This document shows, piece after piece, positions 3,906 to 32,100 of a DNA stretch of 64,000 bases. The stretch is from Lunularia cruciata (taxonomy: Eukaryota; Streptophyta; Marchantiopsida; Lunulariales; Lunulariaceae): contig OX419762.1 in assembly GCA_948567375.1 (NCBI GenBank), forward strand, positions 53,524,841 to 53,588,840, given 5' to 3'. The notes under the pieces are model-generated. The model did no database searches and was not told the origin of the DNA. It saw nothing but the letters and a program-made list of their open reading frames with translations. The position numbers were made by a program, and so were the translations under genes. Each line of letters opens with the position of its first letter. Position 1 is the stretch's first letter.

Positions 3906-3959
3906 AATCAAAGGTCTTAGAGAATATTTAACTTGTGGAAACAAGTATGTTTGCTTACT

Positions 3960-10335: not shown

Positions 10336-11520
10336 CCCCTTGGTCTGCTGGACACCAAGTCCTCCGGGGTAGATAGTGTGACCCAAATACTCAACTTGCT
10401 CGTGGAAGAACCTACACTTCCCAGGATGTAGTTTGAGTCCATGAGATCTCAACCTCTCAAACACCTCCAACAACTGTCTCTCATGCTCCTCCACAGTAGT
10501 GCTATAAACCAAAATGTCATCAATATAGCACCGAGCAAAATCCAATCCAGCTAGGATCCTATCCATGACCCTCTGGAACTCAGCGGGAGCACTCTTCAAC
10601 CCAAATGGTAAGAACCTCCACTGATATAACACATCCTTGCCGTGAGGATCAATAGCCCAAAATGCTATCTTGGACTTATCTTCCTCCCTGATCAGCAACT
10701 GATGATATCCTGCTCGAAGATCCAAAGTACTGAAGACCTTTGCATGCCCAATCGCATCAAAAATCTCCTCCGGTATAGGCATGGCATACCGATCAGCCCT
10801 GGTCTGTCGGTTGATAGGACGGTAATCTCCACACATCCACCTATCTGTATAGTTGCCATGCATATCCTTCTTGGCTGGCATCATTGTCGCTGATGCATAC
10901 TCTCCATGTGAAATCTCCACCAAACCAGCCTCAAAAAGGTCACTACTCCGGCTCTGAATCAATGTCCTCTCCATATCACTATATTGATAAGAACGTCGGA
11001 AAACTGGTGTGTCGCTAGTCAGCTCAATCCATATACCAAGTCCCTTCAGAGCACCCAAATCCTTCATACTGAAGGCAAAACAACTCGTGTGACTCCTCAA
11101 GAACCTCCAAACCCTCCGTCTTTCCTCTCCAGTAAGCTTGGGTCCAAGATCTGGCTCCCAAGTATCCTTTGTAACTATAGTAGGAGTGGAAGGCTACATT
11201 GGGCCCTTGGGAGCAATGGTGTCATGCTCCCGACTACTAGAGGTCCCAACCTCTGTGTGAAAAACTCCCTCCACTCTGGCTGCAAGCTCCATACGTCCTC
11301 TAGCTGCATCCCATGTGGACCAAGGGTGTAATCCAAGTAGCCCACGCTCACCTGGATGGACTCCAAGTAGACCACTCTCCCTAGTAGCTACTGGATGTGT
11401 CCCAAGAATACCATGTCCACTCAGTCCATCACCCCCAGCATGTGCCTGAATCGTCTCGATCGGCACAAGGCTCACAAGTGTCCGAGTGGTGATGCCTATC
11501 AAGCGCATCCTACGCTGCTC
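10336..11520 (-). pseudogene. F3 reverse transcriptase
   Basis: Minus-strand RT in the same frame as the methyltransferase end. Landmarks: RWMCGDYRPINRQT, FSTLDLRAGYHQL, WRFLPFGLKSAPAEFQR and the catalytic YIDD at 10516-10527, then HPGKCRFF and YLGH. YIDD contrasts with FIDD in F1 and F2, so F3 belongs to another gypsy lineage. The stretch 11194-11520 before RT is a linker with three GLLGxHP-like repeats (11323-11412). A TAG at 11194-11196 stands where CAG is likely. A single missing base at about 10333-10338 shifts the frame after QQTK. F1-A lies directly upstream (11521). Confidence 0.87.
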
Positions 11521-12199
11521 TGTAACACCCATTTGTGCATGTGTGTGGTATTGTGATATTTAGCTTGGTATTACAAGTACTTAAGAGATATTATTTATAT
11601 AGAGATAAAGGATGGTTCTATATTAGTCATGGTTAGCTAAAGTTAGTCATAGCTAAGATAGATGGGACCTTACTTTAGAGGAAGTAGAAAAGATGAGCAC
11701 CACTATTTTGGATTTTAGTGTGTTGACTTGGTATTATTCCTAGGTGTTTGGCTTTGGGGAAAGAGTTGAGAACTCTTGGGCCCGCAAGCCTTTTTGTTTT
11801 GGATTCTTCTTTAGTCCAAGGATAGCCCATGTGAAGGAATCCTTGCTTTAGTGGTTGGGTCAAGATAAGGGGAATATGCCCATGTGAATGGATATTCCTT
11901 TCTACTTTTTGACTTTACTTGACTTTTAGTCTAGTAACTTGAGTAACTACGGTAATTAGTAACTTTGGTACGTAACTATTTCACAAGTATATAAACAAGG
12001 AGTGAGGAGGTACTCAGCATCCTTTCATTTGCAACTATCTCTCTCTCATTGAGTTCTCTAGTGAGCAATGTCTTGAGTCTTGGAGTGTTAGCCTTGGAGG
12101 AGTATGATGGAGTTGGGGTTCCTTGCCTTCTTAGTCCATGGTGCGCTACCATAATAGCCATCAGAGGTTCATCCTGAGTGAGAGACAGGCCGGCTCACA
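11521..12199 (+). repeat. F1-A 5' LTR
   Basis: TGTAACACCC...GGCTCACA, 679 bp. It carries a TATA box at 11988-11995. It differs from the 3' LTR at two positions seen by eye (GTGTGGTATT against GTGTGATATT near the start, GAGTAACTAC against GAGTTACTAC near 11944). Confidence 0.95.
11988..11995 (+). promoter_or_regulatory. TATA box of the F1 LTR
   Basis: TATATAAA about 205 bases before the LTR end, conserved in every F1 LTR in the window (for example 48488-48495). Transcription would start roughly 30 bases downstream, defining U3 and R. Confidence 0.65.
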
Positions 12200-12203
12200 T
12201 TTT

Positions 12204-12220
12204 TGGTTCCGTTGCCGGGA
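12204..12220 (+). other. F1-A primer binding site
   Basis: TGGTTCCGTTGCCGGGA lies five bases after the LTR end. It resembles the TGGCGCCGTTGCCGGGGA site used by Tat/Athila-type plant elements, usually attributed to tRNA-Asp. Confidence 0.7.
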
Positions 12221-12240
12221 CCTCTCTAGAAGGCAAGATA

Positions 12241-12411
12241 ATGTTCCGCGTCCAATTCTACATTAGGCAGAAGGAGGCTATGAGAGCTCACTTGGAGAGA
12301 ACATTAGGAGAGGAGAGGGCTGAACTTATGTTAGAGAACCAAGATCCATTTGTATACCCTGTAGTTCATTATGATGTCTTTGAGGTGATTTTGTACATCT
12401 TGTACACATGA
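12241..12411 (+). CDS. Small conserved F1 leader ORF 1
   Basis: ATG at 12241 opens a 56-codon frame (starts MFRVQFYIRQKEAMR, ends VILYILYT) just downstream of the PBS. It is identical in F1-B and F1-C and nearly so in F1-D. Near identity is expected for young copies, so conservation alone does not prove coding. It has a charged helical first half with EERAELMLE. No family recognised. Confidence 0.35.
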   Translation: MFRVQFYIRQKEAMRAHLERTLGEERAELMLENQDPFVYPVVHYDVFEVILYILYT

Positions 12412-13035
12412 GAGGAATTGGAGAGATTGTGTGAGGTGGATTGCAGATTTTGGGGATTAAGGTGATTTTGGGCAAAATCTCAAGTTTGAGATCTGGACTT
12501 GAGATTTCTACACATGATAGCTTGGGTTATCTTTCAGTTAGCACACTTGAAATTATTGAGAGAGCTTCTATGCGCACTGGGCTAGAATTTTTGAAAGTTG
12601 ATAGGGTAAAGTGCTCACGCAACTGCATGCTCTCTGGAAAATTGTACAGAGTCTGCCATTTCTTCAATTTTTAGTGAATTGTCCTGAAAATTTCCAAGAA
12701 AATTTAGTGCATTGTATCCTACCTGGTGCCACAAAAATTAGAGAGAGATAATTTTTGCGCAGTGCGTTATGAGTTTTTGAAGTGAGGGGGGTGGTTTTCA
12801 GACCAAATCTGAAATATGGGTGCTGAATAGAAAGGTGTCTAGGCCAAATGGCTCAATGAAAAGATCTAAAATTTTGCAGGGAGGGACGCCCTAGAGTTGT
12901 GATCAAGTGTGGAAAATTTCAGAGGACTGTGACATATTCGTTGGGAGATTTGAGTGACATTGTGAGGAAGGGTCAATTCTGCAGAGTGGAGATCTCATGC
13001 ATGAGAAGTTTGAGATCAACAAAAAGCATGTTTGA

Positions 13036-13533
13036 GTGTTTAGATTCATCTTTGGGAACATGGAGGGTCATCAAGAGTGGAAATTGAGATTATGCAAGGT
13101 TCCCCAAGGGTTTGAGGTGATTGTAGGGGTGGATTTGAGGAAAAGAGAGTTTACAATAGAATTTGAAGAGAGTGTTGAGAGGATCCAAAAACCTACACCA
13201 CTTGGAGGAAAGAGTGAGTCTAAGTGCTTTCTATGTGGAGAGAAGGGACATAAGGCAAGTTCATGTCCATTAACCTTTGAGAGCAAGAGATTGAGGGAAA
13301 GGAGAGGCTTACTTGACTTGGGTTTGCATGTTGGACCTTCTTCACCAAGATTGGGAGGGAGAAGATCTAAGACCAAGGAGTTGTGTGAGGTTTGTGGAGT
13401 TGAAGGACTTCCAAAAGGACATGAGTGTAGTGGAGTAAAAGCACTTTTGGAAACTTTGGTGAAGGATCTTGGAGAGAGTCTTAGTACAGCTACAGAAATA
13501 CTACCACCTTCATCAGCTAGTTCTCAAGATTAG
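13036..13533 (+). CDS. F1 leader ORF 2 with CCHC zinc knuckle, upstream of gag
   Basis: A frame of about 165 codons ending 236 bases before gag. It contains a canonical CCHC knuckle CFLCGEKGHKASSC (about 13228-13269) and a second Cys-rich motif CEVCGVEGLPKGHEC (about 13387-13431), then a Ser-rich tail. The same frame continues upstream with protein-like sequence, but has TAG at 12892-12894, TGA at 12955-12957 and TGA at 13033-13035, all shared by the copies; the real start or an intron is unresolved. In F1-B and F1-C a one-base insertion ends it early after LGEKS. Extra ORFs before gag are known in Ogre/Tat elements; this one would be a second nucleic-acid-binding protein. Confidence 0.55.
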   Translation: MFRFIFGNMEGHQEWKLRLCKVPQGFEVIVGVDLRKREFTIEFEESVERIQKPTPLGGKSESKCFLCGEKGHKASSCPLTFESKRLRERRGLLDLGLHVGPSSPRLGGRRSKTKELCEVCGVEGLPKGHECSGVKALLETLVKDLGESLSTATEILPPSSASSQD

Positions 13534-13769
13534 TGATGGAGATAATCTTTCAACTTATGGATAAACTATCCATGAGAGTTAGATTAATATGCACTCTAGG
13601 ATTTGATGTTGCTATAGAAATCTTGGAGCAACCTGAACCTTTTGTATTCCCTAGAGTGGATTATTCTCAGATGGTGTTAGTCATGTATATACTCTATTAG
13701 TAATAGAGTGAGAGAAAAGAAAAGAGAAAAAAAAAAATTAAGAGAAAAGAAAGATAGTGAGGGATTAAG

Positions 13770-16700
13770 ATGGGGAAACTTCCGGTTTTCTTTGGCAAGG
13801 ATGGAGAAGATGTAGAGGCCTTTGTGAGAGACTTCAAGAGAGCTTGCATAGGAAACAATGAGAGGAGGAAGAATGAGTGGGCCTCATTATTACCAGATTT
13901 CTTTGAGGATGCAGCACTTACATGGTATGAGTCAGAATACCAAAAGAGAGAGAGGAGAGAGGGGGAAGAGGAGTCTTGGGAGACTTTGACTTCAGCACTC
14001 ATTGAGAACTTTCTTCCTGATGAGAGTTATGAGAGATTTATGAGTGAGGTTACATTTCTCAAGCAAGGAGATGGAGAGAAAGTGAGGGTCTATGTGGAAA
14101 GAGTGGAAAAGTTGGAGTCCAGATTTCGCATAGTGTTGAGGAAGGGTGGGGATGATGTGGAGACTACAATGATTGGCATAGGGGCCATGCTCACCAAGAA
14201 TTTTGTGGGAGGATTGAGACCACAAATTAGAAGCAAGGTGAGATATGAGAAACCTTCTTCCAAGGTTGAAGCTATCAAGATCGCAATTCGTATGGAGGAG
14301 AGTTTGGAAGGGGATGAGAGTGATTTGGTGGTGAAGGAGGTTGTGCATCCTCCTCAAGGCTACAAGTATGGTGGAACTTCTGATACTTTGGTGACAAGGG
14401 TTGCACCACAAGTAGTAGTTACTCCAATTCTTGCACCTCCACCAAAAGATCCACTCCAAACCATCACAGAACAACTTGCGGATCTCAAGATCAATGTGGT
14501 GCAACTATGGGAGAAGAGAGAGGTGGATCAGAATGTAGGGAGAGGACCTAGGAGTTATGGAAACTATCTATATAGAGGAGGCCAACCAGCCAACAATTTC
14601 AATGATAGAAATTGTTTTGGTTGTGGAGGAAGAGGCCATATCCAAAGGAATTGCCCAAATTCCACTTACCATGGAGGAAGGGGTTATGAGGGAGCCAATA
14701 GAGGGAAAGAGGGAGGTAGTGAAACCCAAGTGGCTCCTAATCCCAACAAAGGTAAGGGGATAGCATCCATAGATGTGGTTGAGAGCAAGTATGAGAAGGG
14801 AGAGTGCTCAAACTCCAAGGGTCTTAATTTGGAGCTTTTGGCACAAGAGAAGAAGAGAGCTCGTTTTGCAGAGGATGTTCACTCTTCTCAAGGATTTACT
14901 TCAAGCAAGGATACTCCTATGTCTACTAGGAGCACTCGCACCTCAACACCATCAACAACAAAGACTCCAAGGAAGAAGTTGGGGATGGAGGACTTCTTGA
15001 TCTCAAAGCAACAATGGAACTACAATGTGTTGGAGGATGTTGGTAGTCACAAGGCTAACATCACAGTGGGCCAATTAATTGCTTTGAACCCTACCTTGAG
15101 AAAGGAGCTTAGAGGTGGTTTGAGTTCTACAAGGAGCAAAAAGAAGAAGAAGGCAAAAGTTCCAGTATCAATGGGGGTGGTGGATGCCAAGCCAGCACCA
15201 TGGGAGGCTTGTGAATATGCCTCCAAGATTGATGTGAGAGTGAATGGTCACAACATCAAGGATGCATTGGTTGATGGAGGATCAGCAGTGAATGCCATGT
15301 CAGAAAGGTTGATGAAGAAGTTGGGTATGATACCCTCAAGACCTTTAACATTTGTGGTGAGCATGGCAAACAAGCAACAAGTTAGACCAGTAGGGGTGAT
15401 GGATAAGGTGGTAGTTTCAGTTATGGGAGTTCAAAATCTCATGACTTTCCAAGTCTTGAAGGATTCAAGCTATGACTTACTTCTTGGGAGGCCATGGTTG
15501 AGAGCAGCACGCACAACTGATCGATGGCACAAAGGGTACTTGAGGATTGGGCCATCAAACCATAGAGTCACTGTTCCTGTGACTAACACCACCAACACTT
15601 CACATTCAGATACCCCATCTTCTAATTATTGGGAATCAGATTCTGAAGAAGGAGCTTCAGGTGTGGACACAAGCATGGAAGAGGAGACTTCCACGGAGGA
15701 AGATGAATCTGAATCTGATTCAGATGTGTATCCCTTGTGTGCTATGGATTTTGCACCTAAGCCAGAGGTTTTGAAGGACCCAGATAAATCACCATTGACA
15801 CTTGAGGAGGTAGAGAGAAGGTTATCTACCCTCAAGTATGGCCCAAATGTTACCAAGGAGGAGAAGGTGAGATTTGAGGAGATTTTCCGCAAGTTCATCC
15901 ATGTGTTTGCTTTTAGTTACAAGGATTTGAAGGAAGTCACCTTGGAGGAGCACAAGATAGAGGTGGAGTCACATGCAAGACCAATCCGCCAAAAGCAACG
16001 TCGCATTAGCCCACCAATATCTTTGGTTGTGAAGGAGGAGATTGATAAGCTCAAGGAGGCTGGATTTATCTTTGAGGTGGAGAATTCAGAATGGGTGTCT
16101 CCAATTGTCATTGTGAAGAAAAAGAATGGCAAGCTTCGGGTATGTGTGGATTACAAGAAGCTTAATGCTGTTACCAAGAAGGACTACTACCCATTGCCAT
16201 TCATTGATGAGATCTTGGAGGAGGTTGCAGGTCATGAGAGGTACAGTTTTGGAGATGGTTATAGTGGATATAACCAAATAAAGATTGCACCAGAGCATCA
16301 ACAACTCACCACATTCACCACACCTTGGGGAAATTACGCTTTCAAGGTCATGCCTTTTGGGCTTTGCAATGCTCCAGCCACATTCCAACGGTTCATGAAC
16401 AAGGTATTTGAACCTTTCATTGGGAAATTTGTGAGAGATTTCATTGATGACTTTTGTGTCTATGGGAGCAAGGAGGAGCACTTTGAGCACCTAATCAAAG
16501 TCTTGCAACGCTTGGATGAGGCAAATGCATCACTCAACCCAGAGAAGTGCATTTTTGGATGTGAAGAAGGTCTACTTTTGGGGCACATCATCTCCAAGGA
16601 TGGAATAGCAGTTGATCCTGAGAAGGTGAGGAAAATCTCAGACCTTCCATTCCCTTCAAGCTTGACAAAGTTACGCCAATTCTTGGGAATGGTTGGGTAC

Positions 16701-18596
16701 TATAGGAGGTTCATCTTCTCATTTTCCAACAAGGCTTATGCATTGACCATCTACATGAAGAAGGGTGTAGATTACATGGTGATTTTGGAAGACAAGGAGG
16801 CTCTCAAAGCTTTTGAGGAGCTCAAGCAATCCCTTGTTGTAGCTCCAATTCTTGCTAAACCTGATTGGAGTAAGCCTTTCATCCTCTACACTGATGCTTC
16901 TAATGTAGCTATAGGATGCACTCTTAGTCAATTAGACCAAGATGGGCATGATCATCCAATAGCTTATGCTAGTAGGCAGATGGTTTCAGCAGAGAAGAAC
17001 TACTCTGTCACAGAGAGAGAAGGGTTGGCAGTGATCTTTGGTCTCAAGAAGTTTAGACACTACTTGATTGGAGGGAAAGCCACAATTGTCACGGATCACA
17101 AGGCTTTGAAGTACATCTTCAACAAGCCTAATGTTGAAGGGAGACTAGCAAGGTGGATGATACTCTTGTCTGAGTATGACTACACAATTGAGGATAGGCC
17201 AGGAAAGAAACATGCAAATGCTGATTTGTTATCTAGAGCCTATGATCATGATGGAGATGAGCCAGTAGATGATTCCTTCCCGGATGAGGAGCTCATGACA
17301 ATCTCAGTCACTCAAGAGATTCCAATGGAGTACAAGGAGATTGTGGATTTTGTGACAAGAGGTAACTATCCAGAAGGGATGCATGCTAGGGAGAGGAAGG
17401 CCCTTGCAGCAAGATCTAGACCTTACACAATGGTGGAGGATATTCTTTTTCACCAAGGAGCAGATGGTCTACTTCGAAGAGCAGTGGGTAAGGAAGAGTC
17501 TATCCTACTCATAAAGGAGTTTCATGAAGGTTTAGTATGTGGAGGACACTTTGCAGGAAAGGTGACTGCTTTCAAGATTCTAGATGCAGGTTACCATTGG
17601 AGAGGGATTTTCAAGGATTGTCTTGATTATTGCAAAACTTGTCATGTTTGTCAAGCTTTTGCTAGAAAGTCTACATCCACTCCACCACTTAGATCAATTC
17701 CATTGCTAGGACCTTTTGAGAAGTGGGGAATTGATTTTGTAGGACCTCTCAATAGAACCCCAAGGAACAATCGGTACATTGTGGTAGTTACTGATTACCT
17801 TACCAAGTGGGTTGAGGCTAGACCATTGAGGGACAAGAATGAAGATGAAGTGGGTAGATTTCTTTATGAACGCATTATCACTAGGTTTGGATGCCCTTTG
17901 GAGTTGGTTTCTGATAGAGGAGGAGAGTTTACAAGAAGCATTACTACAGCCATGCTACGACATTTCTCTATCACACATAGAGTAACTACATCCTATAAGC
18001 CAAATTCCAATGGCTTGGCAGAGAGAACCAATCAGACCTTGTGCATGATGTTGGCCAAAGATGCAGAAATGGAGGGGGCTAAACATCATTGGGACAAGAG
18101 GATTCATGCAGTTTTGTGGGAGTATAGGACAACCATGAAGACTTCCACTGGATATTCTCCATTCCAATTGGTGTATGGTATTGAGTGTACCTTACCTATT
18201 CACTTTGATCTTCCTACCTTCCAAAGCATTCATAGGAGATTGAAGAAAGCACAAGGAAGTGATGCAGGGAAGTCAAGGAAGGATCAACTCATGGAGTTGG
18301 AAGAGGCAAGAGCAGTTGCTATGGTTCGAGTGGAGCAAGCCCAAAGGGAACAAAAGGAGAGCTATGACAAGAGGCAAGGCAAGAAGAAGGTGGAGCCTTT
18401 CAAAGAAGGTGATTGGGTAATGTTGTTTGATTCCATTCGATTCAAGAGAGTGCAAAAGAAGTTTTTGCCTAAGTACTTTGGACCTTTCATAGTAGAGAAG
18501 GTGTGGGGCAATTACACCTATGATCTCAAGGAGTTGGGAGGAAGACACTTTGATAGGATTAACCATGATAAGTTGAAGATGTACCATAGAAGGTAG
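13770..18596 (+). CDS. F1-A Gag-Pol polyprotein, intact 1608 codons
   Basis: One uninterrupted frame from ATG 13770 (after a purine-rich leader, context AAGATGGGG). Gag has a capsid-like region (residues about 1-200) and a zinc knuckle CFGCGGRGHIQRNC at 282-295. The protease aspartate is D502 in VDGGSAVN (DGG instead of the usual DTG/DSG). RT begins near 720 with catalytic FIDD at 891-894. The RNase H aspartate is D1042 (YTDAS). The integrase zinc region starts at H1252 and ends CKTCHVC. The DDE triad is D1322, D1382 and E1418 (59 and 35 residues between). There is a short C-terminal domain and no chromodomain. The copy has Arg where F1-B and F1-C have Gly in GGEFTGS, four residues after D1382. 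Expected activity: self-contained retrotransposition. Confidence 0.95.
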   Translation: MGKLPVFFGKDGEDVEAFVRDFKRACIGNNERRKNEWASLLPDFFEDAALTWYESEYQKRERREGEEESWETLTSALIENFLPDESYERFMSEVTFLKQGDGEKVRVYVERVEKLESRFRIVLRKGGDDVETTMIGIGAMLTKNFVGGLRPQIRSKVRYEKPSSKVEAIKIAIRMEESLEGDESDLVVKEVVHPPQGYKYGGTSDTLVTRVAPQVVVTPILAPPPKDPLQTITEQLADLKINVVQLWEKREVDQNVGRGPRSYGNYLYRGGQPANNFNDRNCFGCGGRGHIQRNCPNSTYHGGRGYEGANRGKEGGSETQVAPNPNKGKGIASIDVVESKYEKGECSNSKGLNLELLAQEKKRARFAEDVHSSQGFTSSKDTPMSTRSTRTSTPSTTKTPRKKLGMEDFLISKQQWNYNVLEDVGSHKANITVGQLIALNPTLRKELRGGLSSTRSKKKKKAKVPVSMGVVDAKPAPWEACEYASKIDVRVNGHNIKDALVDGGSAVNAMSERLMKKLGMIPSRPLTFVVSMANKQQVRPVGVMDKVVVSVMGVQNLMTFQVLKDSSYDLLLGRPWLRAARTTDRWHKGYLRIGPSNHRVTVPVTNTTNTSHSDTPSSNYWESDSEEGASGVDTSMEEETSTEEDESESDSDVYPLCAMDFAPKPEVLKDPDKSPLTLEEVERRLSTLKYGPNVTKEEKVRFEEIFRKFIHVFAFSYKDLKEVTLEEHKIEVESHARPIRQKQRRISPPISLVVKEEIDKLKEAGFIFEVENSEWVSPIVIVKKKNGKLRVCVDYKKLNAVTKKDYYPLPFIDEILEEVAGHERYSFGDGYSGYNQIKIAPEHQQLTTFTTPWGNYAFKVMPFGLCNAPATFQRFMNKVFEPFIGKFVRDFIDDFCVYGSKEEHFEHLIKVLQRLDEANASLNPEKCIFGCEEGLLLGHIISKDGIAVDPEKVRKISDLPFPSSLTKLRQFLGMVGYYRRFIFSFSNKAYALTIYMKKGVDYMVILEDKEALKAFEELKQSLVVAPILAKPDWSKPFILYTDASNVAIGCTLSQLDQDGHDHPIAYASRQMVSAEKNYSVTEREGLAVIFGLKKFRHYLIGGKATIVTDHKALKYIFNKPNVEGRLARWMILLSEYDYTIEDRPGKKHANADLLSRAYDHDGDEPVDDSFPDEELMTISVTQEIPMEYKEIVDFVTRGNYPEGMHARERKALAARSRPYTMVEDILFHQGADGLLRRAVGKEESILLIKEFHEGLVCGGHFAGKVTAFKILDAGYHWRGIFKDCLDYCKTCHVCQAFARKSTSTPPLRSIPLLGPFEKWGIDFVGPLNRTPRNNRYIVVVTDYLTKWVEARPLRDKNEDEVGRFLYERIITRFGCPLELVSDRGGEFTRSITTAMLRHFSITHRVTTSYKPNSNGLAERTNQTLCMMLAKDAEMEGAKHHWDKRIHAVLWEYRTTMKTSTGYSPFQLVYGIECTLPIHFDLPTFQSIHRRLKKAQGSDAGKSRKDQLMELEEARAVAMVRVEQAQREQKESYDKRQGKKKVEPFKEGDWVMLFDSIRFKRVQKKFLPKYFGPFIVEKVWGNYTYDLKELGGRHFDRINHDKLKMYHRR

Positions 18597-18630
18597 AGAG
18601 ACCTTCACTTTGAGGACAAAGTGAAAACTT

Positions 18631-18644
18631 AGTCCGGGGGTAAA
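18631..18644 (+). other. F1-A polypurine tract region
   Basis: AGTCCGGGGGTAAA immediately before the 3' LTR, identical in F1-B (reverse) and F1-C. The run GGGGG with flanking purines is the probable plus-strand primer. Confidence 0.65.
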
Positions 18645-19323
18645 TGTAACACCCATTTGTGCATGTGTGTGATATTGTGATATTTAGCTTGGTATTACAA
18701 GTACTTAAGAGATATTATTTATATAGAGATAAAGGATGGTTCTATATTAGTCATGGTTAGCTAAAGTTAGTCATAGCTAAGATAGATGGGACCTTACTTT
18801 AGAGGAAGTAGAAAAGATGAGCACCACTATTTTGGATTTTAGTGTGTTGACTTGGTATTATTCCTAGGTGTTTGGCTTTGGGGAAAGAGTTGAGAACTCT
18901 TGGGCCCGCAAGCCTTTTTGTTTTGGATTCTTCTTTAGTCCAAGGATAGCCCATGTGAAGGAATCCTTGCTTTAGTGGTTGGGTCAAGATAAGGGGAATA
19001 TGCCCATGTGAATGGATATTCCTTTCTACTTTTTGACTTTACTTGACTTTTAGTCTAGTAACTTGAGTTACTACGGTAATTAGTAACTTTGGTACGTAAC
19101 TATTTCACAAGTATATAAACAAGGAGTGAGGAGGTACTCAGCATCCTTTCATTTGCAACTATCTCTCTCTCATTGAGTTCTCTAGTGAGCAATGTCTTGA
19201 GTCTTGGAGTGTTAGCCTTGGAGGAGTATGATGGAGTTGGGGTTCCTTGCCTTCTTAGTCCATGGTGCGCTACCATAATAGCCATCAGAGGTTCATCCTG
19301 AGTGAGAGACAGGCCGGCTCACA
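18645..19323 (+). repeat. F1-A 3' LTR
   Basis: 679 bp, TGTAACACCC to GGCTCACA, followed directly by the duplication GCTC and F3 methyltransferase sequence on the minus strand. Confidence 0.95.
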
Positions 19324-20340
19324 GCTCTGCCAAGCCAAGGCTCACAATCCAGGTCAAACAGTTCAGGTCCATAGCCTGACCTAACACCTGACGCCTGGAT
19401 GCCTCTGACACTGCTGGAACAACGGTAATATCGGTGCGAAAACCCATCACCTGCTCTCTCTCATCAGCATTGGCCTCCACCAACTGCTGTAACTGTGAGT
19501 CCCAAACAAGTCCAGGTCCTCCCTCTCGAAAAGCATGAGAGCCTGGGAAACTCATGAGTGTGGGAAATGCAGCTCTAGGCTGTCCAACTAGGTTCACCAC
19601 TGCCATAGGTGACCTATTAGCCACTACCACTGTCTGAGACTGACGCCCAACATCCAAGATATCATCAACAAGAATGTGGTCTAGTCGTTGAATCCCATCA
19701 TAACTACGCTGTTTAGAACCTCTCTAGGTAAGAGGTTCGTCCACCAAAGACAAAGATGATGAGCCCATGATCCCACTCTGGCTGCATCTAACAATACAGC
19801 AGGTCCCATCCAAGAATGGACCTGATGTGTACTCACCACCACTCTAGTGCAAGAATCACCCAACAAAGGAACATTCTCCAAAAGGTAAGCTGGAGAAATA
19901 GACTGATGAACCTGGAGATATCGTAGTATCCGTAACATCTCCCAAAACACACCAGAATGAGGATCCTGAAGACCCAAACCACGGCCCGCACGTGTATGTC
20001 CCTAACATGGCCATCCAAAAATCACCAAGTGAACAGGCCCATGTCTCTCTAGGTCATGCGCCCCCAGTAAGGAAATGTCTCCTGGTAAGGCCTTTTGGTA
20101 ACCTCTGACTGCTGACATTGGTAATAACTCCGGATACCGATAGGCCAAGTGTGCCACATGATGTAGAGAGACTCGCCAAGCAGTCTCATCTCTCTCTACA
20201 TACAAGTACCTTTGTACTCGGATACCTACCTGTAACACCGCAGCTAGTCCGGTGCTGATCCCACCAAACAACTCCAATAGACATATCCCCTCTACTGGAT
20301 ACTGCCAAGCAATGAGTGTGGTATCCAGAGGTGTCAAAGC
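19324..20340 (-). pseudogene. F3 DNMT3-like C5 DNA cytosine methyltransferase domain
   Basis: A nearly complete cytosine-5 methyltransferase fold inside the retrotransposon polyprotein. Motif I, the SAM-binding loop, is LELFGGISTGL (about 20245-20277). Motif IV with the catalytic cysteine is IFGWPC (Cys at 20005-20007), followed by a TAG where C5 methyltransferases often have Gln. Motif VI is LLENVP (about 19867-19881). A DNMT3-type LDAARVGSWAHH..WWTNL block lies at 19732-19790. The motif IX-X region is NADEREQVMGF then SRRQVLGQAMD (about 19350-19470). Order and spacing resemble DNMT3/DRM-class enzymes more than DNMT1/CMT. The frame is that of Gag-protease until a one-base shift near 19690, then continues into RT across F1-A. 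This copy is dead because of TAG 20002-20004 and the frameshift. Confidence 0.87.
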
Positions 20341-20985
20341 AATCGCCTCTGGAGGCTCATCCTCACACTCATCCCTTGATGGTACGAAGGCTCCACTCCA
20401 AGCCTACTGCACCAACTGATCTGCATGCTACTGCAATGCCTCCTCTGAACTCCACAATGGAACATCCAAGGTGGATGGAACAATCCCACTTGTACTCCAT
20501 AGCCGAGTGATCTCCTCTAGTACTGGAGTATCCTCTGCATGGGTGTTCCCCTCCAACAAGTCACCAGGCCAAGTAACTGCACCGCTGAAAGCTAAAACTG
20601 ATGCTGCCATGGTCCCGGACTGTAGTGAGCCAAGACAGTCACTACTGAAGCGTACTGGTAGGCGACATACCCGTCCCTCACCAGACTGCCAACCAGGTCT
20701 ATAAGAGGCTGTCTCCTCCCAATAGTCAATGCTGAAACCCATAGGGTATAACACTGCTCCCCCAACTAGCACATCATATGACTCAACTATCGTCGCAATG
20801 GCCTAAGCTCTCACCACCGAGCTATCAGTCGGATGACCAACCTGAACCTGGACAACAAGCTCCCCACGTGTGATGTACTGTGTCAAACCACCACCTAGAG
20901 ATGTCTGGATCTGAAATGGACACCTCTCCACATCGGTCTTCCGTAACTCCAGACCAACAACTGCAGCCTTCCCCAACATAAGGGG
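20341..20985 (-). pseudogene. F3 protease body and linker to the methyltransferase
   Basis: Continues in the Gag frame after the TAG at 20986-20988, which follows the LLDSGA active-site loop. Visible blocks are LGKAAVVGLELRK and YDVLVGGAVLYPMGFSIDYW, the latter resembling the C-terminal strand of retropepsins before the pol linker. A spacer of about 130 residues follows, rich in acidic and Trp residues. Further TAG codons occur at 20806-20808 (RA-stop-AIA), after EEALQ and after DQLVQ. Each could derive from CAG by one C-to-T change. The protease would cut the polyprotein; no processing sites can be seen. Confidence 0.65.
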
Positions 20986-23235
20986 CTACGCACCAGAGTC
21001 TAACAAGACTCTTTGTGGTGTATAGACCTTCCCTAAAGGTCCCACTAAACAAAAGATCCTCCTCTGGTTATCCAATAGGACAACACCAGGTGTAAACCGT
21101 GCTCTCTCAAAGGCCGGTCTAGCTGGCAACTCCTCCAGTCTAGCCGCTGCTGCCTGCCATAAACCACTGGTCGCTGAACAGATCCCATGCTCCTCAACCA
21201 AGTCAGCTCCACTACCAACCACCTCTGCTCTAGTAGTAGGAACTGCACCATCCCTACTCTCACACAACGTGGCAGCCAACCGGAACACTGGGGCTGGGTC
21301 AACTCCCAATGTAAACATGTCACTGGCTGAAAATAAAGGATGCCGCATAATCAGCTGAGCCGCCCCCAACATCATGCTAGACTCAGTTTGTGTAGTAGCA
21401 GGTGGCAGACTAACAGGTACTCCATCAGGTACTCCATCATCACCTACCACACCTGCACTGGGACGTCTAGGAACCATGGATGTCGTCTGCAATGCCTCAG
21501 ATAGCATGAAAGACTGGGGAAGTCTGACCTGTCTCCCAACCTCTCCTCTCTGTGGGTCCAACTCCACTGATGCTCCTCTAGGCTCTGGAGCACGTATTGC
21601 ACTCCTAGTCACTGCTGCAGATGCATCCACCTGTGCTGCTCCACACATGAAGTCCAAAGCATCTCTATCACCAGCATATGAGGTGGAAGCCTCAGCACCC
21701 GAATCTGATCTCCTCTGAGCAATAGCCATACTAGCCAATCTCTGCTCCAACTGCTCAATCCGAGTAGCCATAGCTGTGTCAGAAGTAAGGGCAGGTACTG
21801 CACCCCTACTAGGTGTAGATCCTCTACCACCACCTCTACCACCTTGTCCTCCATGAACTGGAGCTCCTCCACTACCTGCCATAGCAGCCCTACCACTCCG
21901 TAACTCCGGGTGTAGGTCAAAACACCGGTCACTAGTGTGACCAAATCTGTAGCAATGCTCACATTGCCTCTGTGCTGGCTGTGATGCACCAAAGGTATCA
22001 GGTCCGCTGCCCTGAGTACACTCTCTCCTATGGTGAGGTCCACCACAAGTCCAACAAGCAACATCACCACTCATTGGATGCTGCTGACCCGAAAATGAGG
22101 GTAAGGGTCTAACTCCACTAGGCCCTCCACTCGCTCCATAGGATCTGGGCTGTCCACCCTGTCCTCGAAAACCAACTGGGCATGGTGCACTCTGCTGCAC
22201 TCTAGCAGAAGTCACAGCTGTGGATGAGGTCTCCCTACCAAATCCAGATGTCACCACTCTCTCCTCCACTATGTTGAGCTCAATACGCTCAGCCAAACCA
22301 AAGACTACTGCCAAAGTGGGCGAAGTAGCCTGCAACAACATAGCATCACGAACTCTACGTCGCAACTCCCTGTCCAGTATCCCATACCAAAATTGGACTG
22401 CTTGGGCCTCAGTAACTCCCTGAGTGAAACTGATCAGCCGCCTCATGCGAGTGTATGCCTCGCGTAGGCTCTCTCCAGCCTTCCGCTGGAACTCCTGCAA
22501 GCTCCTCAGCTTGTCAGTCCGCACTCCCTGGTAGTTCTGCCTCAAACATAGGAAGAACTCCACCATGGGGTTAAACCCCGGTACCACACCACCTCTTGCA
22601 ACGGTACCTCCTCTCGTAGTAGCACTATCTCTAGCTAGTGCACCTCCACTAGCTCCACCCACACTACTCGAGCTAGAACTTGTAGGTACAGCCGATCTAC
22701 TCTTGGCCACCGAGCCTGAAGTGATGGAGACATAGTGTGGAGACCAATACTGTCTCCATAACTCAATCTCCTCCAAATGAGCTCTCCTGAACTCATGGTA
22801 ATCATCCATTGGTGGACCCTCCAAGTGCTGAAACAACCCCTTCCATGCCATGAAGGGTGTGAACAAAGTCGGGTTCCGCATCTGCTGCAGATCACACCAA
22901 CTATCAAACTCCTGGATGAAGTCATCCAACTCAATGGTACCCACTGTACCAGAGTAACGCCTAGGGCCTTTGGAGGCCCCATAAATCTCGTCCATGTCCC
23001 ACAACAACAGTGCGGACACACCAAGTGCACTCTCAACTGAATCAGCTCCTATGTCGAACTCCAACTCAGAGTCAATCTCCTCCCTCACTGGGACCTGAGA
23101 TACAGGCTGATACCGAGCACCACTCCGAGTAAACCCATTGCGTATTGCAATGCTCACTCCTCTGGAATCTCCAGAGAACTCCGTCGTGACCACGTAACTA
23201 CAACAACAAACCTGAACCACCAACTGCAACCGCAA
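20986..23235 (-). CDS. F3 Gag plus protease active-site loop
   Basis: A 749-codon open stretch. The capsid-like region contains the Retrotrans_gag block (KLRSLQEFQRKAGESLREAY, then RRLISFTQGVTEAQAVQFWY, about residues 225-270). Two zinc knuckles follow: CWTCGGPHHRREC (residues 394-406, slightly irregular spacing) and CEHCYRFGHTSDRC (425-438). An RGG-rich stretch follows (about 455-475), as in RNA-binding nucleocapsids. The frame ends right after LLDSGA (D746), the retropepsin aspartate, because of a TAG. The frame is open far upstream without ATG; the first ATG is at 22993-22995 (residue 81), so the start is uncertain. Gag would package element RNA in cytoplasmic particles. Confidence 0.85.
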   Translation of the reverse strand: MRLQLVVQVCCCSYVVTTEFSGDSRGVSIAIRNGFTRSGARYQPVSQVPVREEIDSELEFDIGADSVESALGVSALLLWDMDEIYGASKGPRRYSGTVGTIELDDFIQEFDSWCDLQQMRNPTLFTPFMAWKGLFQHLEGPPMDDYHEFRRAHLEEIELWRQYWSPHYVSITSGSVAKSRSAVPTSSSSSSVGGASGGALARDSATTRGGTVARGGVVPGFNPMVEFFLCLRQNYQGVRTDKLRSLQEFQRKAGESLREAYTRMRRLISFTQGVTEAQAVQFWYGILDRELRRRVRDAMLLQATSPTLAVVFGLAERIELNIVEERVVTSGFGRETSSTAVTSARVQQSAPCPVGFRGQGGQPRSYGASGGPSGVRPLPSFSGQQHPMSGDVACWTCGGPHHRRECTQGSGPDTFGASQPAQRQCEHCYRFGHTSDRCFDLHPELRSGRAAMAGSGGAPVHGGQGGRGGGRGSTPSRGAVPALTSDTAMATRIEQLEQRLASMAIAQRRSDSGAEASTSYAGDRDALDFMCGAAQVDASAAVTRSAIRAPEPRGASVELDPQRGEVGRQVRLPQSFMLSEALQTTSMVPRRPSAGVVGDDGVPDGVPVSLPPATTQTESSMMLGAAQLIMRHPLFSASDMFTLGVDPAPVFRLAATLCESRDGAVPTTRAEVVGSGADLVEEHGICSATSGLWQAAAARLEELPARPAFERARFTPGVVLLDNQRRIFCLVGPLGKVYTPQRVLLDSGA

Positions 23236-23580
23236 GTCGCAACCGCAAGTACCCCACCAAGTGCCAACACCAACTAAACACCACCCACTAATGTAACTCT
23301 AACCGAGATAACTACACTAGGGGAAAGGCAACCTGTAACCTGCCATCATAACACGAACTCTCACGGTCTGCAGGTCATCACTTCCTGCCTCACCGGAGAG
23401 AAACAAAGGTAGTTTGACTGGTCATCATTCCAGCCTCACCACCGAGAGCACACCAGAGCACCAATGCTCAAAAGTCAAGGCACCTCACACAAACGTGGTG
23501 CACAAACAGGAAGCAGAGAATGGAGGGGATCCAATCACAAGAAATCTAAACAAAAACCCTCCATCTCATAACACAACACG

Positions 23581-23600: not shown

Positions 23601-24927
23601 TGGCATTTGACATAAGAGTAGTTCGTATCTAAGTCCTAAGCTACCATTATCACCAAGAATGGGATCAAACTGCCTCTCCTAGCCAAAGCTACATGTGTAT
23701 AGATAACAGTGGCACAGTCACTATGACAACAAGTGAGGGTGGACCAGTTGGTTAGGGCACCAGTCTAGGAACAAGAGATCTAGGAGTCAAACCCTGTTGC
23801 GCACAATCTAGCAAGAAAGGCAGATTTTGCCAACCAATGACCAAGATCTACACTAAACTAGCTAGCCTCACGCCAGCAAGGTAGCTTGCTGGCCCTTCTA
23901 GGCCTTCGTAGCCTCTCATAGCCCATAGCCCTATGCCTTGAAGCCTTGAAACGCCGAAATTCAGCCAAATGAGGCCTTTCTTCCAAACTAGCGAAACTTC
24001 TCCAAATCTGGCCAAACAACGAAACTCCTCCAATTCTGGCCCAAAATCTGACGTAAATCTGACGTAAAATCTGACATAAACCCTAAAGATGAATGTCCGC
24101 CAAATCCCCCGCTAACTTTCCACTCAAGCCAAATTGACAAAACGAGTTTTTCCAAATCACAATTTCATGAGAAGAGCTTTCTAACTCCACCTTCAATTTC
24201 ACTTTCTGAGCCCAACTCGCAGCAAATTGGTCATGCCTTCACCTCTTGAGCTCAAAATCACAACACTGCTCGAAAATTGCTCCTTCTTTGCTCGAAATTT
24301 GGCCAACGCTTCCGCACGCCGTCCGCCTAACTGCCAAATCTGCATCAACTGAACGAACTTCTGCACACTAGGGAAACACAAAACTTGAATCGAGCTAGCA
24401 TGATCCACCGAGCTTGGCGATACCACCAACACTCAACATTCCTGCACCCAATTTCCCCCTGACTTCACTTCTATGATGTAATCAGATTGCTTAACATTCT
24501 CAACTCAACTCAACTTAGATCAGTACTTGATCTATCACTCTATAAATTGCCTACAACTGGGTATTGATTACAGTCAAGCCACACCCACTCAAGCATAGAG
24601 AATCCAGGTGACGCTCGCCGGCCTCTGTCCACCATAGCCAAGAACTCGAAGGCTCAACATCAGAGAAGTGAGCTCTCTAGAGCTCACTTCGAAACTATAC
24701 CCCCTGGACTTGAGCTAGCCCTGAAACCCTAACGGTCCCGCTGACAGTACACTCGACGGTGCAAACGGTGCAAAGTGACAGTGGGCCCCACCGTGAAGTC
24801 AGTACCCCAAACACAAAATCTAACCGTCGGAAAGTAGTCCCTGGGAAACTGCTAGAATAACTCTAACTACCATCATTGGAACTCCAGTGTCCGAGCATCT
24901 AGATGCGGAACTACAAATGGCATGACA
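23601..24927 (-). repeat. F3 5' LTR (block Y plus downstream part)
   Basis: The right part, 24477-24927, is block Y (451 bp, minus-strand TGTCATGCC to CTGATTACA), shared with 7373-7822 at roughly 95 percent by eye. The remaining 876 bp down to the PBS-like site have no counterpart on the 3' side. Relative to the 3' side it lacks block X at its start. The outer end abuts the duplication TCTT at 24928-24931. The non-Y part may instead be leader if the PBS call is wrong. Confidence 0.6.
23734..23803 (+). repeat. Possible tRNA-derived SINE head
   Basis: Contains a tRNA-like A box region (GGACCAGTTGGTTAGGG, 23741-23757) and, about 30 bases on, a B box-like GAGTCAAACCC (23783-23795). The spacing is that of a pol III promoter. 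It lies within the non-shared part of the F3 5' LTR or leader. No tail, target duplication or second copy is visible, so this is only a candidate. Confidence 0.35.
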
Positions 24928-24979
24928 TCTTCTTGTGCTCTAAGTTCACTAAACAATGGGCACACAATTTCTTGCAGGT
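24928..24979 (-). repeat. F2-2 3' LTR, segment 2
   Basis: A 52-bp island between F3 and F2-1, starting with the F3 duplication TCTT and ending with the F2-1 duplication CAGGT. It matches the reverse complement of 58040-58100. It shows that F3 and F2-1 hit the same F2-2 LTR about 50 bases apart. Confidence 0.85.
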
Positions 24980-26876
24980 TGTGGTGCCCACATTTTTTGT
25001 TTTTTTCAAAATAGAGGAGAAGAAGTGTATAGAGAAGTCAGATTGCGCCTGTATGACCGAAGAAAGCAAAGAAAGGAGTCTTCGGGAGGAAACCCAAAGT
25101 AAAGTGGCTTTGGGTCATAAGGCGAAGTACTCAGAAATGCCCTGTCAGCATACAACCCGAAGTAAATTGCCTTTGGATCGGGGGGAGCTCAACCCAAGGC
25201 AAAGACAGTCTAACAAACTTTCATCGGCGTGAGAAATTCAAGAAGGGGCCGTTTCAAAACTGGCGGCTCATACGCACAAAGGTTGATTGATAGTGACAGG
25301 TGCATGTTGGAGGTGTGATTTCTTGGTAGGAACTTGAAGTGACGGAAGACGAAGAAGCACAACTCTATAAAAATCAAAACTGCAACAACGAAATGTTGAG
25401 CAATTTTCCTTCGCCGTTGAGGAGTCGTCTTGCAGGTGATCGGGGAAAGGGAAATAGAGTTGGACTCGTGTTAGTACGCAACGGAGAAGTTGCGAGAGTG
25501 AAATCGAGAGAAAGTGAGAAAGTAGAAGAGATGGGAGGAGGGAAGAAGAACTCCGAATTCACAATGAGAAATCATGCAATTCGGAGATTAGATGTGATAG
25601 CAAGGATCAAAGTCTTGAGCTGACTTCAGATCACCTTTCTGGCATGGAACTGGAACGTGAGTTTTCTAGGATTCATGACAGAAATCATCGAGAGTAAGTG
25701 TCTTGATGGACCCGAGGAAGAAGGAAAGAGAGGAAATCCGGCTCGCTGGACAGAGTCAGATTGGAGACTCGTACTCGGGAAGGAGGCAGGCTCGGAGCAG
25801 GGAGCCTTGTTCTTGGGGAAAGGAGAGATAGCCCAAGAAACGCAAGAGGTGAGAGATGCCTTCTCGTAAAAAAGAACGAAGAATAGGTATAAGGTTGAGA
25901 GCTACAAAGATCCTATCAAGAGGGGAATTGTGAGTGCTCTCATGGCAATCTTGAAGCCGGAGAGAACAACTTATGTGGTGAAACACCAAGCGGTGTTCTT
26001 CCATAAGTTGTTTGCAGGAGAACCTATCAATTGGGCGAGGTGTTTTCACGGGAGAACGGGGCAGACTGTGTGGAATTTGCGGGATAAGTCGCCTCCACAT
26101 TACATTGTGCCGTTTGCAGCACACTTCTACCTTGGGCTCAATCTACTGACCTCGGCGGAGTGGAATTTGATGGTGTCGCACTTCCATCCAGATGTGTGAA
26201 AGGAGGTCAATGTTGAGGAGCAGCAGTATATTCTCCAAATCCGGAGCACGGACGACTACTAAAGCAAAGTGCTGCGAAGCAGTGCTCGTCGCTTGAGCTT
26301 GATTCCGAGTATCAACTTTTTGATTGTGTTTGTGAGTGTGTGGAGAAATTCGAAGTGCAAGTCAGTGTGTTTGTTGGATGTTGGATTCTATAGCCTTGAT
26401 CTTCATTCTGTGTGTTTGATCTTGAGTGAAGTGCAATCAAAGCAATGCCTTGACAGATCTGAGAGGAATTGTTGTGTTGGTAGTATTCTGCATTTGTGAG
26501 TGTAGTGCGAGGTTGATGTGAAGCAATTTTGATCAAGGAAGTTGTGCCTTCAGTGGAGGGGTGGAACACAATTCTGAGGCGAAGTCTTTTTGCAATGAAG
26601 TGCCTTTTTCAAGAGAGCCTGAATCATCACAATCAAGATTGTTTGGAAAGATTTGATGGAGTTGTGATTAAGGAGTGTGAATTTGTGACAAGACCGCAAG
26701 TCAGTGCTTGTTACTCTCTTTTGGGTGTGGTTTCTACCTAAGAGATTAAAGACGCAACCAAGAAGAACTGAAATTGTTACTTTGCTTTGTATTTGACCAA
26801 TTCTGACTCGTATCTCTGCGGGAACGAACTTTACTTACCCGATTACCGCAAAAGTGATATTTGCCGGGTTGTCACA
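24980..26876 (+). repeat. F2-1 5' LTR, internally deleted
   Basis: TGTGGTGCCCACA to GGGTTGTCACA. Colinear with the 3' LTR except that the interval equivalent to about 42106-43978 is missing; the join is at about 26262 (GACTACTAAAGCAAAGTGC). Because both LTRs are copied from one template at insertion, the deletion arose afterwards. A TATA motif (CTATAAAAA) lies at about 25364-25372. Confidence 0.88.
25393..26259 (+). pseudogene. F2 LTR ORF, N-terminal part (F2-1 5' LTR)
   Basis: Starts MLSNFPSPLRSRL and aligns with 41237-42100. TGA at about 25621 replaces the CGA seen in the 3' LTR copy, and further stops follow (a TAA at about 25867, a TGA at about 26198). The acidic and coiled-coil parts are removed by the LTR deletion. 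It holds the block WARCFHGRTGQTVWNLRDK, shared by all copies. Confidence 0.6.
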
Positions 26877-29146: not shown

Positions 29147-32100
29147 CTACCTTCTATGGTACATCTTCAACTTATCATGGTTAATCCTATCAAAGTGTCT
29201 TCCTCCCAACTCCTTGAGATCATAAGTGTAATTGCCCCACACCTTCTCTACTATGAAAGGTCCAAAGTACTTAGGCAAAAACTTCTTTTGCACTCTCTTG
29301 AATCAAACAACATTACCCAATCGCCTTCTTTGAAAGGCTCCACCTTCTTCTTGCCTTGCCTCTTGTCATAGCTCTCCTTTTGTTTCCTTTGGGCTTGCTC
29401 CACTCGAACCATAGCAACTGCTCTTGCCTCTTCCAACTCCATGAGTTGATCCTTCCTTGACTTCTCTGCATCACTTCCTTGTGCTTTCTTCAATCTCCTA
29501 TGAATGCTTTGGAAGGTAGGAAGATCAAAGTGAATAGGTAAGGTAGACTCAATACCATACACCAATTGGAATGGAGAATATCCAGTGGAAGTCTTCATGG
29601 TTGTCCTATATTCCCACAAAACTGCATGAATCCTCTTGTCCCAATGATGTTTAGCCCCCTCCATTTCTGCATCTTTGGCCAACATCATGCACAAGGTCTG
29701 ATTGGTTCTCTCTGCCAAGCCATTGGAATTTGGCTTATAGGATGTAGTTACTCTATGTGTGATAGAGAAATGTCGTAGCATGGCTGTAGTAATGCTTCCT
29801 GTAAACTCTCCTCCTCTATCAGAAACCAACTCCAAAGGGCATCCAAACCTAGTGATAATGCGTTCATAAAGAAATCTACCCACTTCATCTTCATTCTTGT
29901 CCCTCAATGGTCTAGCCTCAACCCACTTGGTAAGGTAATCAGTAACTACCACAATGTACCGATTGTTCCTTGGGGTTCTATTGAGAGGTCCTACAAAATC
30001 AATTCCCCACTTCTCAAAAGGTCCTAGCAATGGAATTGATCTAAGTGGTGGAGTGGATGTAGACTTTCTAGCAAAAGCTTGACAAACATGACAAGTTTTG
30101 CAATAATCAAGACAATCCTTGAAAATCCCTCTCCAATGGTAACCTGCATCTAGAATCTTGAAAGCAGTCACCTTTCCTGCAAAGTGTCCTCCACATACTA
30201 AACCTTCATGAAACTCCTTTATGAGTAGGATAGACTCTTCCTTACCCACTGCTCTTCGAAGTAGACCATCTGCTCCTTGGTGAAAAAGAATATCCTCCAC
30301 CATTGTGTAAGGTCTAGATCTTGCTGCAAGGGCCTTCCTCTCCCTAGCATGCATCCCTTCTGGATAGTTACCTCTTGTCACAAAATCCACAATCTCCTTG
30401 TACTCCATTGGAATCTCTTGAGTGACTGAGATTGTCATGAGCTCCTCATCCGGGAAGGAATCATCTACTGGCTCATCTCCATCATGATCATAGGCTCTAG
30501 ATAACAAATCAGCATTTGCATGTTTCTTTCCTGGCCTATCCTCAATTGTGTAGTCATACTCAGACAAGAGTATCATCCACCTTGCTAGTCTCCCTTCAAC
30601 ATTAGGCTTGTTGAAGATGTACTTCAAAGCCTTGTGATCCGTGACAATTGTGGCTTTCCCTCCAATCAAGTAGTGTCTAAACTTCTTGAGACCAAAGATC
30701 ACTGCCAACCCTTCTCTCTCTGTGACAGAGTAGTTCTTCTCTGCTGAAACCATCTGCCTACTAGCATAAGCTATTGGATGATCATGCCCATCTTGGTCTA
30801 ATTGACTAAGAGTGCATCCTATAGCTACATTAGAAGCATCAGTGTAGAGGATGAAAGGCTTACTCCAATCAGGTTTAGCAAGAATTGGAGCTACAACAAG
30901 GGATTGCTTGAGCTCCTCAAAAGCTTTGAGAGCCTCCTTGTCTTCCAAAATCACCATGTAATCTACACCCTTCTTCATGTAGATGGTCAATGCATAAGCC
31001 TTGTTGGAAAATGAGAAGATGAACCTCCTATAGTACCCAACCATTCCCAAGAATTGGCGTAACTTTGTCAAGCTTGAAGGGAATGGAAGGTCTGAGATTT
31101 TCCTCACCTTCTCAGGATCAACTGCTATTCCATCCTTGGAGATGATGTGCCCCAAAAGTAGACCTTCTTCACATCCAAAAATGCACTTCTCTGGGTTGAG
31201 TGATGCATTTGCCTCATCCAAGCGTTGCAAGACTTTGATTAGGTGCTCAAAGTGCTCCTCCTTGCTCCCATAGACACAAAAGTCATCAATGAAATCTCTC
31301 ACAAATTTCCCAATGAAAGGTTCAAATACCTTGTTCATGAACCGTTGGAATGTGGCTGGAGCATTGCAAAGCCCAAAAGGCATGACCTTGAAAGCGTAAG
31401 TTCCCCAAGGTGTGGTGAATGTGGTGAGTTGTTGATGCTCTGGTGCAATCTTTATTTGGTTATATCCACTATAACCATCTCCAAAACTGTACCTCTCATG
31501 ACCTGCAACCTCCTCCAAGATCTCATCAATGAATGGCAATGGGTAGTAGTCCTTCTTGGTAACAGCATTGAGCTTCTTGTAATCCACACATACCCGAAGC
31601 TTGCCATTCTTTTTCTTCACAATGACAATTGGAGACACCCATTCTGAATTCTCCACCTCAAAGATAAATCCAGCCTCCTTGAGCTTATCAATCTCCTCCT
31701 TCACAACCAAAGATATTGGTGGGCTAATGCGACGTTGCTTTTGGCGGATTGGTCTTGCATGTGACTCCACCTCTATCTTGTGCTCCTCCAAGGTGACTTC
31801 CTTCAAATCCTTGTAACTAAAAGCAAACACATGGATGAACTTGCGGAAAATCTCCTCAAATCTCACCTTCTCCTCCTTGGTAACATTTGGGCCATACTTG
31901 AGGGTAGATAACCTTCTCTCTACCTCCTCAAGTGTCAATGGTGATTTATCTGGGTCCTTCAAAACCTCTAGCTTAGGTGCAAAATCCATAGCACACAAAG
32001 GATACACATCTGAATCAGATTCAGATTCATCCTCCTCCGTGGAAGTCTCCTCTTCCATGCTTGTGTCCACACCTGAAGCTCCTTCTTCAGAATCTGATTC

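Follow-up and report, generated by a model that had tools for sequence, protein, structure and literature searches.

A predicted DNMT3-type C5-cytosine methyltransferase (MT) was found in the minus-strand translation, at 20403-19324, of a 64,000-nucleotide stretch of Lunularia cruciata DNA (hereafter the window), where its coding stretch forms part of a Ty3/gypsy retrotransposon (the MT element). This MT is a standing domain of a high-copy gypsy family. In our preferred reading, to which we give a probability of about 0.5, a first frame encodes Gag, protease (PR) and MT, and a second one, encoding reverse transcriptase (RT), RNase H, integrase (IN) and a PHD finger, would be translated when ribosomes read through a leaky TAG codon. 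The DNMT3-type MT would have been captured long ago by a group of green-lineage elements and then selectively kept, presumably for a benefit to the element. Its place ahead of the leaky stop would mean that the MT is produced in the quantities of Gag and enters the particle; there it would most likely methylate the DNA of its own element, either ahead of integration or during it, and the PHD finger of the integrase may read histone H3 at the target.

The MT element in the window

The MT element spans 24927-7268 (-) and is interrupted by a younger gypsy element, F1-A, at 11521-19323 (+), so that Gag, PR and MT (23298-19324) are separated from RT, RNase H, integrase and PHD finger (11193-8099), both halves being on the minus strand, as are all features described in this paragraph. 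The left terminal repeat, A1 (24479-24927), starts with TGTCA and has no adjoining B copy. Gag and the start of PR, which reaches LLDSGA and then a TAG, occupy 20989-23298; two zinc knuckles were seen by eye, and the Pfam match of Gag to Retrotrans_gag (E 0.029) is below the cutoff. The remainder of PR and the PR-MT linker (20431-20985), aligned with proteins P0033 and P0011, contain an internal TAG at 20805-20803. MT motifs I-VIII lie at 19684-20403, with a TAG in motif IV at 20004-20002, and motifs IX-X at 19324-19723. An in-frame TAG at 11194-11196 marks the MT/RT boundary and is followed by RT (10303-11193, RVT_1 1.5e-29), RNase H (9824-10390, RT_RNaseH_2 1.6e-33) and an integrase with H2C2 and rve domains (8099-9769, rve 9.5e-13), which ends in the PHD finger (1e-10, at about 8239-8105). 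A candidate polypurine tract, AGGGGGG, was located by eye at 7934-7940, directly ahead of B1 (7825-7931, 97% identity with B2); A2 (7375-7822, with 22 differences from A1 in 449 positions) and B2 (7268-7374, terminating in ACAACA) complete the right end. The 4-bp target duplication AAGA stands outside A1 (24928-24931) and outside B2 (7264-7267).

F1-A is a clean nested insertion, foreign to the MT element. It carries a 1608-aa open frame, LTRs at 11521-12199 and 18645-19323 with 99.7% identity, and a 4-bp target duplication, GCTC. When F1-A was removed in silico, the empty site read AEQRR through in a single frame, which indicates that MT and RT once shared a frame. Gypsy polyproteins at 13770-18596, 29251-33963 and 50270-55096 are near-identical members of the F1-A family, two of the three with intact 1608-aa frames. 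The MT element is flanked on both sides by the arms of an inverted repeat (5408-6024 and 26260-26875, about 90% complementary), and the Rfam scan gave 0 matches.

All the MT motifs named in the preliminary description are present in the minus-strand translation, and the order of motifs I, IV, VI, VIII and X is canonical, unlike that of the rearranged DRM enzymes. The single frame proposed there holds for motifs I-VIII (20403-19684), but motifs IX-X are read in another one (19723-19322). The suggested PF00145 (DNA_methylase) profile matched 19686-20808 with X at the stops (E 5.9e-5, 23.1 bits against a cutoff of 22) and was weak when the MT was supplied as separate pieces (E 0.22 for one of three, no match for the other two), the piece with motifs IX-X (19324-19723) having no Pfam match by itself. 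With X at the stops, the window MT also matched human DNMT3A (E 1.4e-6). In-frame TAGs interrupt the window copy at several places, and its frame shifts after motif VIII, ahead of motif IX. With a TAG cutting motif IV and the arginines of motif VIII gone (GSWAHHLCLWWTNL), it cannot encode an active enzyme, and this copy of the MT element is dead.

Copies, in-frame stop and selection

The genome (566 Mb, 74 contigs) was searched for other copies, and 40 matches of 6256 first-look candidates were scored. At least 39 further MT copies were found, with 96-97% identity to the window MT (all 40 scored matches, the window's own included, reach at least 96%). With human DNMT3A as query (150 scored of 1995 candidates), at least 149 places had an E value of 0.001 or lower, and 10 of 149 matches sit in open frames of 1428-1431 codons. 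A one-off host-gene insertion, with the MT confined to the window copy, is ruled out by the at least 39 further copies and the 10 open frames. Eight of the DNMT3A-query loci were inspected: six are element copies, one (L031) is a DNMT3-like gene with introns and canonical motif order, and one (L035) is a DRM-like gene with rearranged order; neither gene has PR or RT near it within its locus.

Twenty of the 39 further copies were taken as whole stretches for comparison. The Gag-PR-MT-RT order anticipated in the preliminary description was found in all 20, in full as Gag-PR-MT, in-frame TAG and RT-RNaseH-integrase-PHD, and the same order is seen in an intact relative, L001, a 9285-base contig with identical ends (1-127 and 9159-9285) in which Gag-PR-MT is open to 3488 and is followed by TAG and, in the same frame, by RT-RNaseH-IN-PHD at 3492-6632. 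L001 had been binned in a Synechococcales (cyanobacterial) genome; by its content it is surely a misbinned eukaryotic contig. The MT frame is free of indels in 20/20 copies and free of stops in 9/20. The earlier claim of a DNMT3-like MT as a standing gypsy domain is thus borne out by the DNMT3A match, by the genomic copies and by the 145 matching proteins and the clade of 41 element MTs described below.

All 18 copies that cover the MT/RT boundary (L017 and L019 do not extend over it) have a TAG there, followed by CAGCCA in 17 and by CAGCTA in one. In L001 the TAG is followed by CAATCA, which also fits CAR-YYA, and the window copy retains the TAG and has lost the hexamer with a short deletion. 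CAR-YYA follows none of the other TAGs (0/100 in L001, 0/3393 in the 20 stretches). Decay as the source of the window TAG at 11196 is ruled out by the presence of the same TAG in 18/18 copies. A study of SIRE1 reportedly describes stop readthrough ahead of an envelope-like frame; the stop of the MT element sits instead between MT and RT, and its readthrough is predicted from sequence. The arrangement, UAG-CAR-YYA in frame between two long frames, is that of the TMV-type leaky UAG and is shared with SIRE1 and MuLV; the CAR-YYA hexamer is described as essential for this type of readthrough (PMC2754532, PMC2194720). The MT does share a frame with Gag-PR and RT, as the preliminary description had it, but the in-frame TAG-CAR-YYA splits it from RT. 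Hence the MT is part of the Gag-PR frame, and with a leaky stop behind it the MT is probably produced at the level of Gag.

Pairwise dN/dS across the copies (L017 left out) was 0.33 for MT, near the 0.28 of RT, and 0.24 for RNaseH, 0.35 for PR, 0.47 for IN and 0.64 for Gag, so that the comparison proposed at the outset came out in favour of a maintained domain. MT variants common to at least two copies comprised 13 nonsynonymous and 17 synonymous changes, against 39 and 19 among singletons (p 0.04), and in RT shared variants were likewise less often amino-acid changing than singletons (p 0.026). This effect is absent in IN (p 1) and PHD (p 0.47), which counts against our preferred reading, and the p values come from nine uncorrected tests, so that the result is moderate evidence that the MT has been kept under selection. 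Between window and L001, the identity of the MT (48% and 57%) falls short of that of RT (61%), RNaseH (73%) and IN+PHD (68%), which also counts against the preferred reading.

Plants silence transposons by cytosine methylation, and an abundant element that encodes a writer of this mark therefore turns the usual arms-race picture round. One possibility, also named in the preliminary description as a quieting of the element's own copies, is that the MT restrains the element: it would methylate new copies, which the host would then silence, so that damage is limited and the element tolerated. The copies do carry a strong CG and CHG signature, with singleton C-to-T rates per site of 0.36 at CG, 0.28 at CHG and 0.058 at CHH and a rate of 0.015 for A/T transitions (L017 and L019 left out), and 60 of 138 stop changes are CAG to TAG, a count that includes foreign L017 columns. 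Counts of ORF1 stops (9-17 per copy) were left out, since the reading frame applied to them was that of L024, a copy with 17 stops of its own. Restraint is also named as one possibility in PMC5890265. The CG/CHG-biased C-to-T pattern, however, fits host methylation equally well, as host enzymes would leave the same signature and the genome has the DNMT3-like L031 and the DRM-like L035, and the high copy number speaks against a strong form of restraint; we consider this explanation unlikely. CG sites are commoner in the coding region of the MT element (454 in about 7.4 kb) than in F1-A (53 in about 4.8 kb), and the three F1-A-family polyproteins are much poorer in CG than the MT element. This gives no hint that the propagating lineage has undergone heavy CG self-methylation and counts against the preferred reading.

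Relatives, enzyme type and origin of the MT

A search with the window MT stretch returned 145 protein matches (best E 7e-119); named sources in the 120 listed include Marchantia polymorpha, Calypogeia fissa and Sphagnum, and a second protein search (41 matches) added Closterium. Since Marchantia has relatives of the element and its genetics is easy, the function is open to test there. The second frame of L001 returned 997 matches, and the 120 listed include proteins of Klebsormidium nitens, Closterium, Calypogeia, Riccia, Haematococcus and Tetrabaena. Among these 120 relatives, classed with an MT profile trained on the same proteins, the MT lies before RT in 13 (first class) and between RNaseH and integrase in 30 (second class); the predicted protein has no MT in 77, many of which are pieces of the second frame only. 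Independently of this profile, precomputed PF00145 matches exist for 9 of the 30 second-class proteins; of five second-class proteins scanned against PF00145, three gave no match, a fourth fell short of the cutoff and the fifth attained it, a result that counts against the preferred reading. Scans of viral contigs with three queries found no relative, and a Streptomyces sequence (L002) matched over 34 residues.

Among solved C5 methyltransferases, DNMT3 is the nearest to the element MT by both sequence and fold. A 23-row MT profile scored against PDB gave 3.4e-20 for DNMT3A, 5e-8 for DRM, 1.5e-7 for HaeIII, 1.4e-5 for HhaI and 9e-4 for DNMT2. The MT domain of L001 was modelled with AlphaFold2 (mean pLDDT 73, pTM 0.79), and the best 50 matches of the model among solved structures were all DNMT3A/3B chains (E from 1.7e-16, about 22% identity), with TM scores (target) of 0.70-0.78 against isolated catalytic domains. 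A DRM or CMT/DNMT1 type is ruled out by the profile scores and the motif order. In a survey of 69 MT slices of at least 250 aa each, the catalytic Cys was kept in 64 and the motif VI Glu in 64. The near-universal Pro ahead of the catalytic Cys in motif IV is replaced by Glu in 16/28 second-class and 5/10 first-class slices and in 0/31 other MTs.

This replacement could be taken as a sign that the MT is retained to bind nucleic acid or to shape the particle and not for catalysis, as could the second-class proteins P0216, P0230 and P0233, which lack the catalytic residues, and the decayed domain of Tetrabaena P0250. The retention of Cys and Glu in nearly all slices and a dN/dS of the window-type MT close to that of RT stand against such a role, which appears very improbable. 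The Klebsormidium MT gave no methylation in yeast, an assay judged inconclusive because human DNMT3B failed as well (PMC5890265).

For tree building, RT rows were thinned at 85% and MT rows at 75% identity. In a careful RT tree (70 rows), the window branches together with a Calypogeia element (100/98), and a group of 13 rows (100/99) unites it with L001; a single clade of 26 (100/97), placed among first-class rows, takes in all 22 second-class rows. Four proteins inside this clade (P0204, P0210, P0196 and P0229) have no MT and are apparent MT losses. P0252 and P0216 were left out of this tree; both are in the second-class clade of a quick tree. In a careful MT tree (45 rows), the 41 element MTs form one clade (98/98), and 19 second-class MTs also group as one clade (91/83). 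Relative to the outgroups, which were only four (own-genome DNMT3 and DRM, human DNMT3A and M.HhaI), the element MTs are a separate clade on a long stem; that the outgroup branches are few and long counts against a single capture. This tree leaves out 14 rows, including Tetrabaena P0250, Marchantia P0141, P0216, P0230 and P0233, and the decayed Tetrabaena MT appears in a quick tree only. Given one clade of 41 MTs and second-class clades by both RT and MT, a single capture with a single move is the most economical account, and these trees make a single ancient origin of the element MTs probable.

The phylogeny called for in the preliminary description is less clear-cut in a cruder form, in which human DNMT3A is not separated and falls among the element MTs. 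That placement would suit separate captures of host DNMT3 genes by Klebsormidium and bryophyte elements, the published view for Klebsormidium (PMC5890265). RT and MT trees also disagree in places: the RT tree places P0158 in a group with L001 and the window (100/99), the MT tree with Klebsormidium P0201 (95/73), and P0266/P0267 are likewise discordant. Against this, the better aligned tree unites the 41 element MTs to the exclusion of its four outgroups, and PHD finger, integrase type and split repeats are also common to the elements. We regard separate captures as rather unlikely. Should the single-origin tree stand, the capture confined to the Klebsormidium lineage that was proposed in 2018 will have to be reconsidered.

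What was known before is a DNMT3 in a gypsy element of one charophyte alga: KnitGypsy-Dnmt3 of Klebsormidium nitens, published in 2018 by de Mendoza et al. and called lineage-specific, has a gypsy Pol with DNMT3 and A-coding-B-A-B repeats (Fig. 4 legend), and purifying selection was reported (PMC5890265). It resembles the MT element in gypsy domain set, repeat order and DNMT3-type MT, which in both lies between PR and RT. The architecture had been thought unreported in the preliminary description, which this publication contradicts, as does K. nitens P0201, probably KnitGypsy-Dnmt3 itself, with PR-MT-RT-RH-IN in one protein and its MT inside the element clade. The MT of KnitGypsy-Dnmt3 is described in the Pol frame with RT (PMC5890265), whereas that of the MT element is in the Gag-PR frame with TAG-CAR-YYA after it, the TAG interrupting the frame in 18/18 copies, the window and L001. 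The terms PHD and Physcomitrella are absent from the available text of PMC5890265, whereas the MT element has a PHD finger and a land-plant host. DNMT3s embedded in retrotransposons are mentioned as previously reported in PMC12344493, and according to a review land plants such as tracheophytes lack transposons with DNA methylases (PMC6338049), against which the high-copy bryophyte family stands. No paper on bryophyte MT-carrying elements was found in the open-access literature (subscription papers and preprints were outside the scope). New here are the land-plant range, the probable shared origin, the predicted readthrough stop, the PHD finger and the second MT position.

Repeats, integration and PHD finger

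The repeats follow the order A-coding-B-A-B, and all four (A1, B1, A2 and B2) are present in 16 of 20 stretches and in the window; in L017, L024, L027 and L029 one or more are missing within the stretch. The order RT-RNaseH-integrase, the TG...CA ends and a target duplication of 4-5 bp are those of Ty3/gypsy elements, but in place of two full direct LTRs at the ends the repeats are split. Target duplications of 4 bp occur in 7/7 copies that show both ends with flanks, the window included, and the seven have no sequence in common. A DIRS element, with tyrosine recombinase and no target duplication, is ruled out by the rve integrase and these duplications. The Symbiodinium elements SymbioDIRS-Dnmt3 and SymbioLINE-Dnmt are, like the MT element, retrotransposons with their own C5 MT, and SymbioDIRS shares its DIRS-like repeat order; by description they are set apart by a tyrosine recombinase or LINE machinery (PMC5890265), the MT element having a DDE-type integrase and 4-bp duplications.

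The divergence between A1 and A2 has a median of 1.6% (16 copies) and is 4.9% in the window. A purine run precedes B1, and at the B1-A2 join GC stands within a constant ACAACA-GC-TGTCA, which looks like a circle opened there; the split repeats and this constant join suggest a circular DNA intermediate. Length changes occur at the A2-B2 join in 2/18 copies and at the A1-internal and internal-B1 joins in 0/20 each, which is suggestive only as a hint on the route. No TGG primer site was seen by eye after A1.

Of the 120 listed relatives, 92 have a PHD finger at the end of the integrase, and this finger is nearest to the fingers of CHD4, KMT2D, PHF12, KDM5 and UHRF1, several of which read unmodified H3K4. 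Plant chromoviruses are Ty3/gypsy elements with a chromodomain on the integrase; the MT element is like them in gypsy order and in having a chromatin-reader domain at the integrase end, but this domain is a PHD finger instead. A chromovirus is ruled out, since no chromodomain matched and the integrase C-terminus is a PHD finger. The frequency of the finger and its nearest relatives would also suit an MT that acts in trans on target chromatin, guided by the integrase PHD as a split DNMT3 reader-plus-writer. MT and PHD are, however, on opposite sides of the stop in the MT element, and the target duplications have no common sequence, so that action in trans seems distinctly improbable.

Returning to methylation of the element's own DNA, a fuller version of the preferred reading can be put forward tentatively, at somewhat under even odds. 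A PHD-bearing gypsy lineage extending from green algae to bryophytes would have captured a DNMT3-type MT once, in ancient times, and the MT would have changed place once, leaving its site between PR and RT for one between RNaseH and integrase. With the TMV-type stop, each particle of the bryophyte-type branch would hold many MTs and few integrase-PHD proteins, and a circular intermediate opened by the DDE integrase would deliver pre-methylated DNA. At the right end of one copy, L026, a GC and the beginning of another A copy come after B2, which looks like a tandem of two elements.
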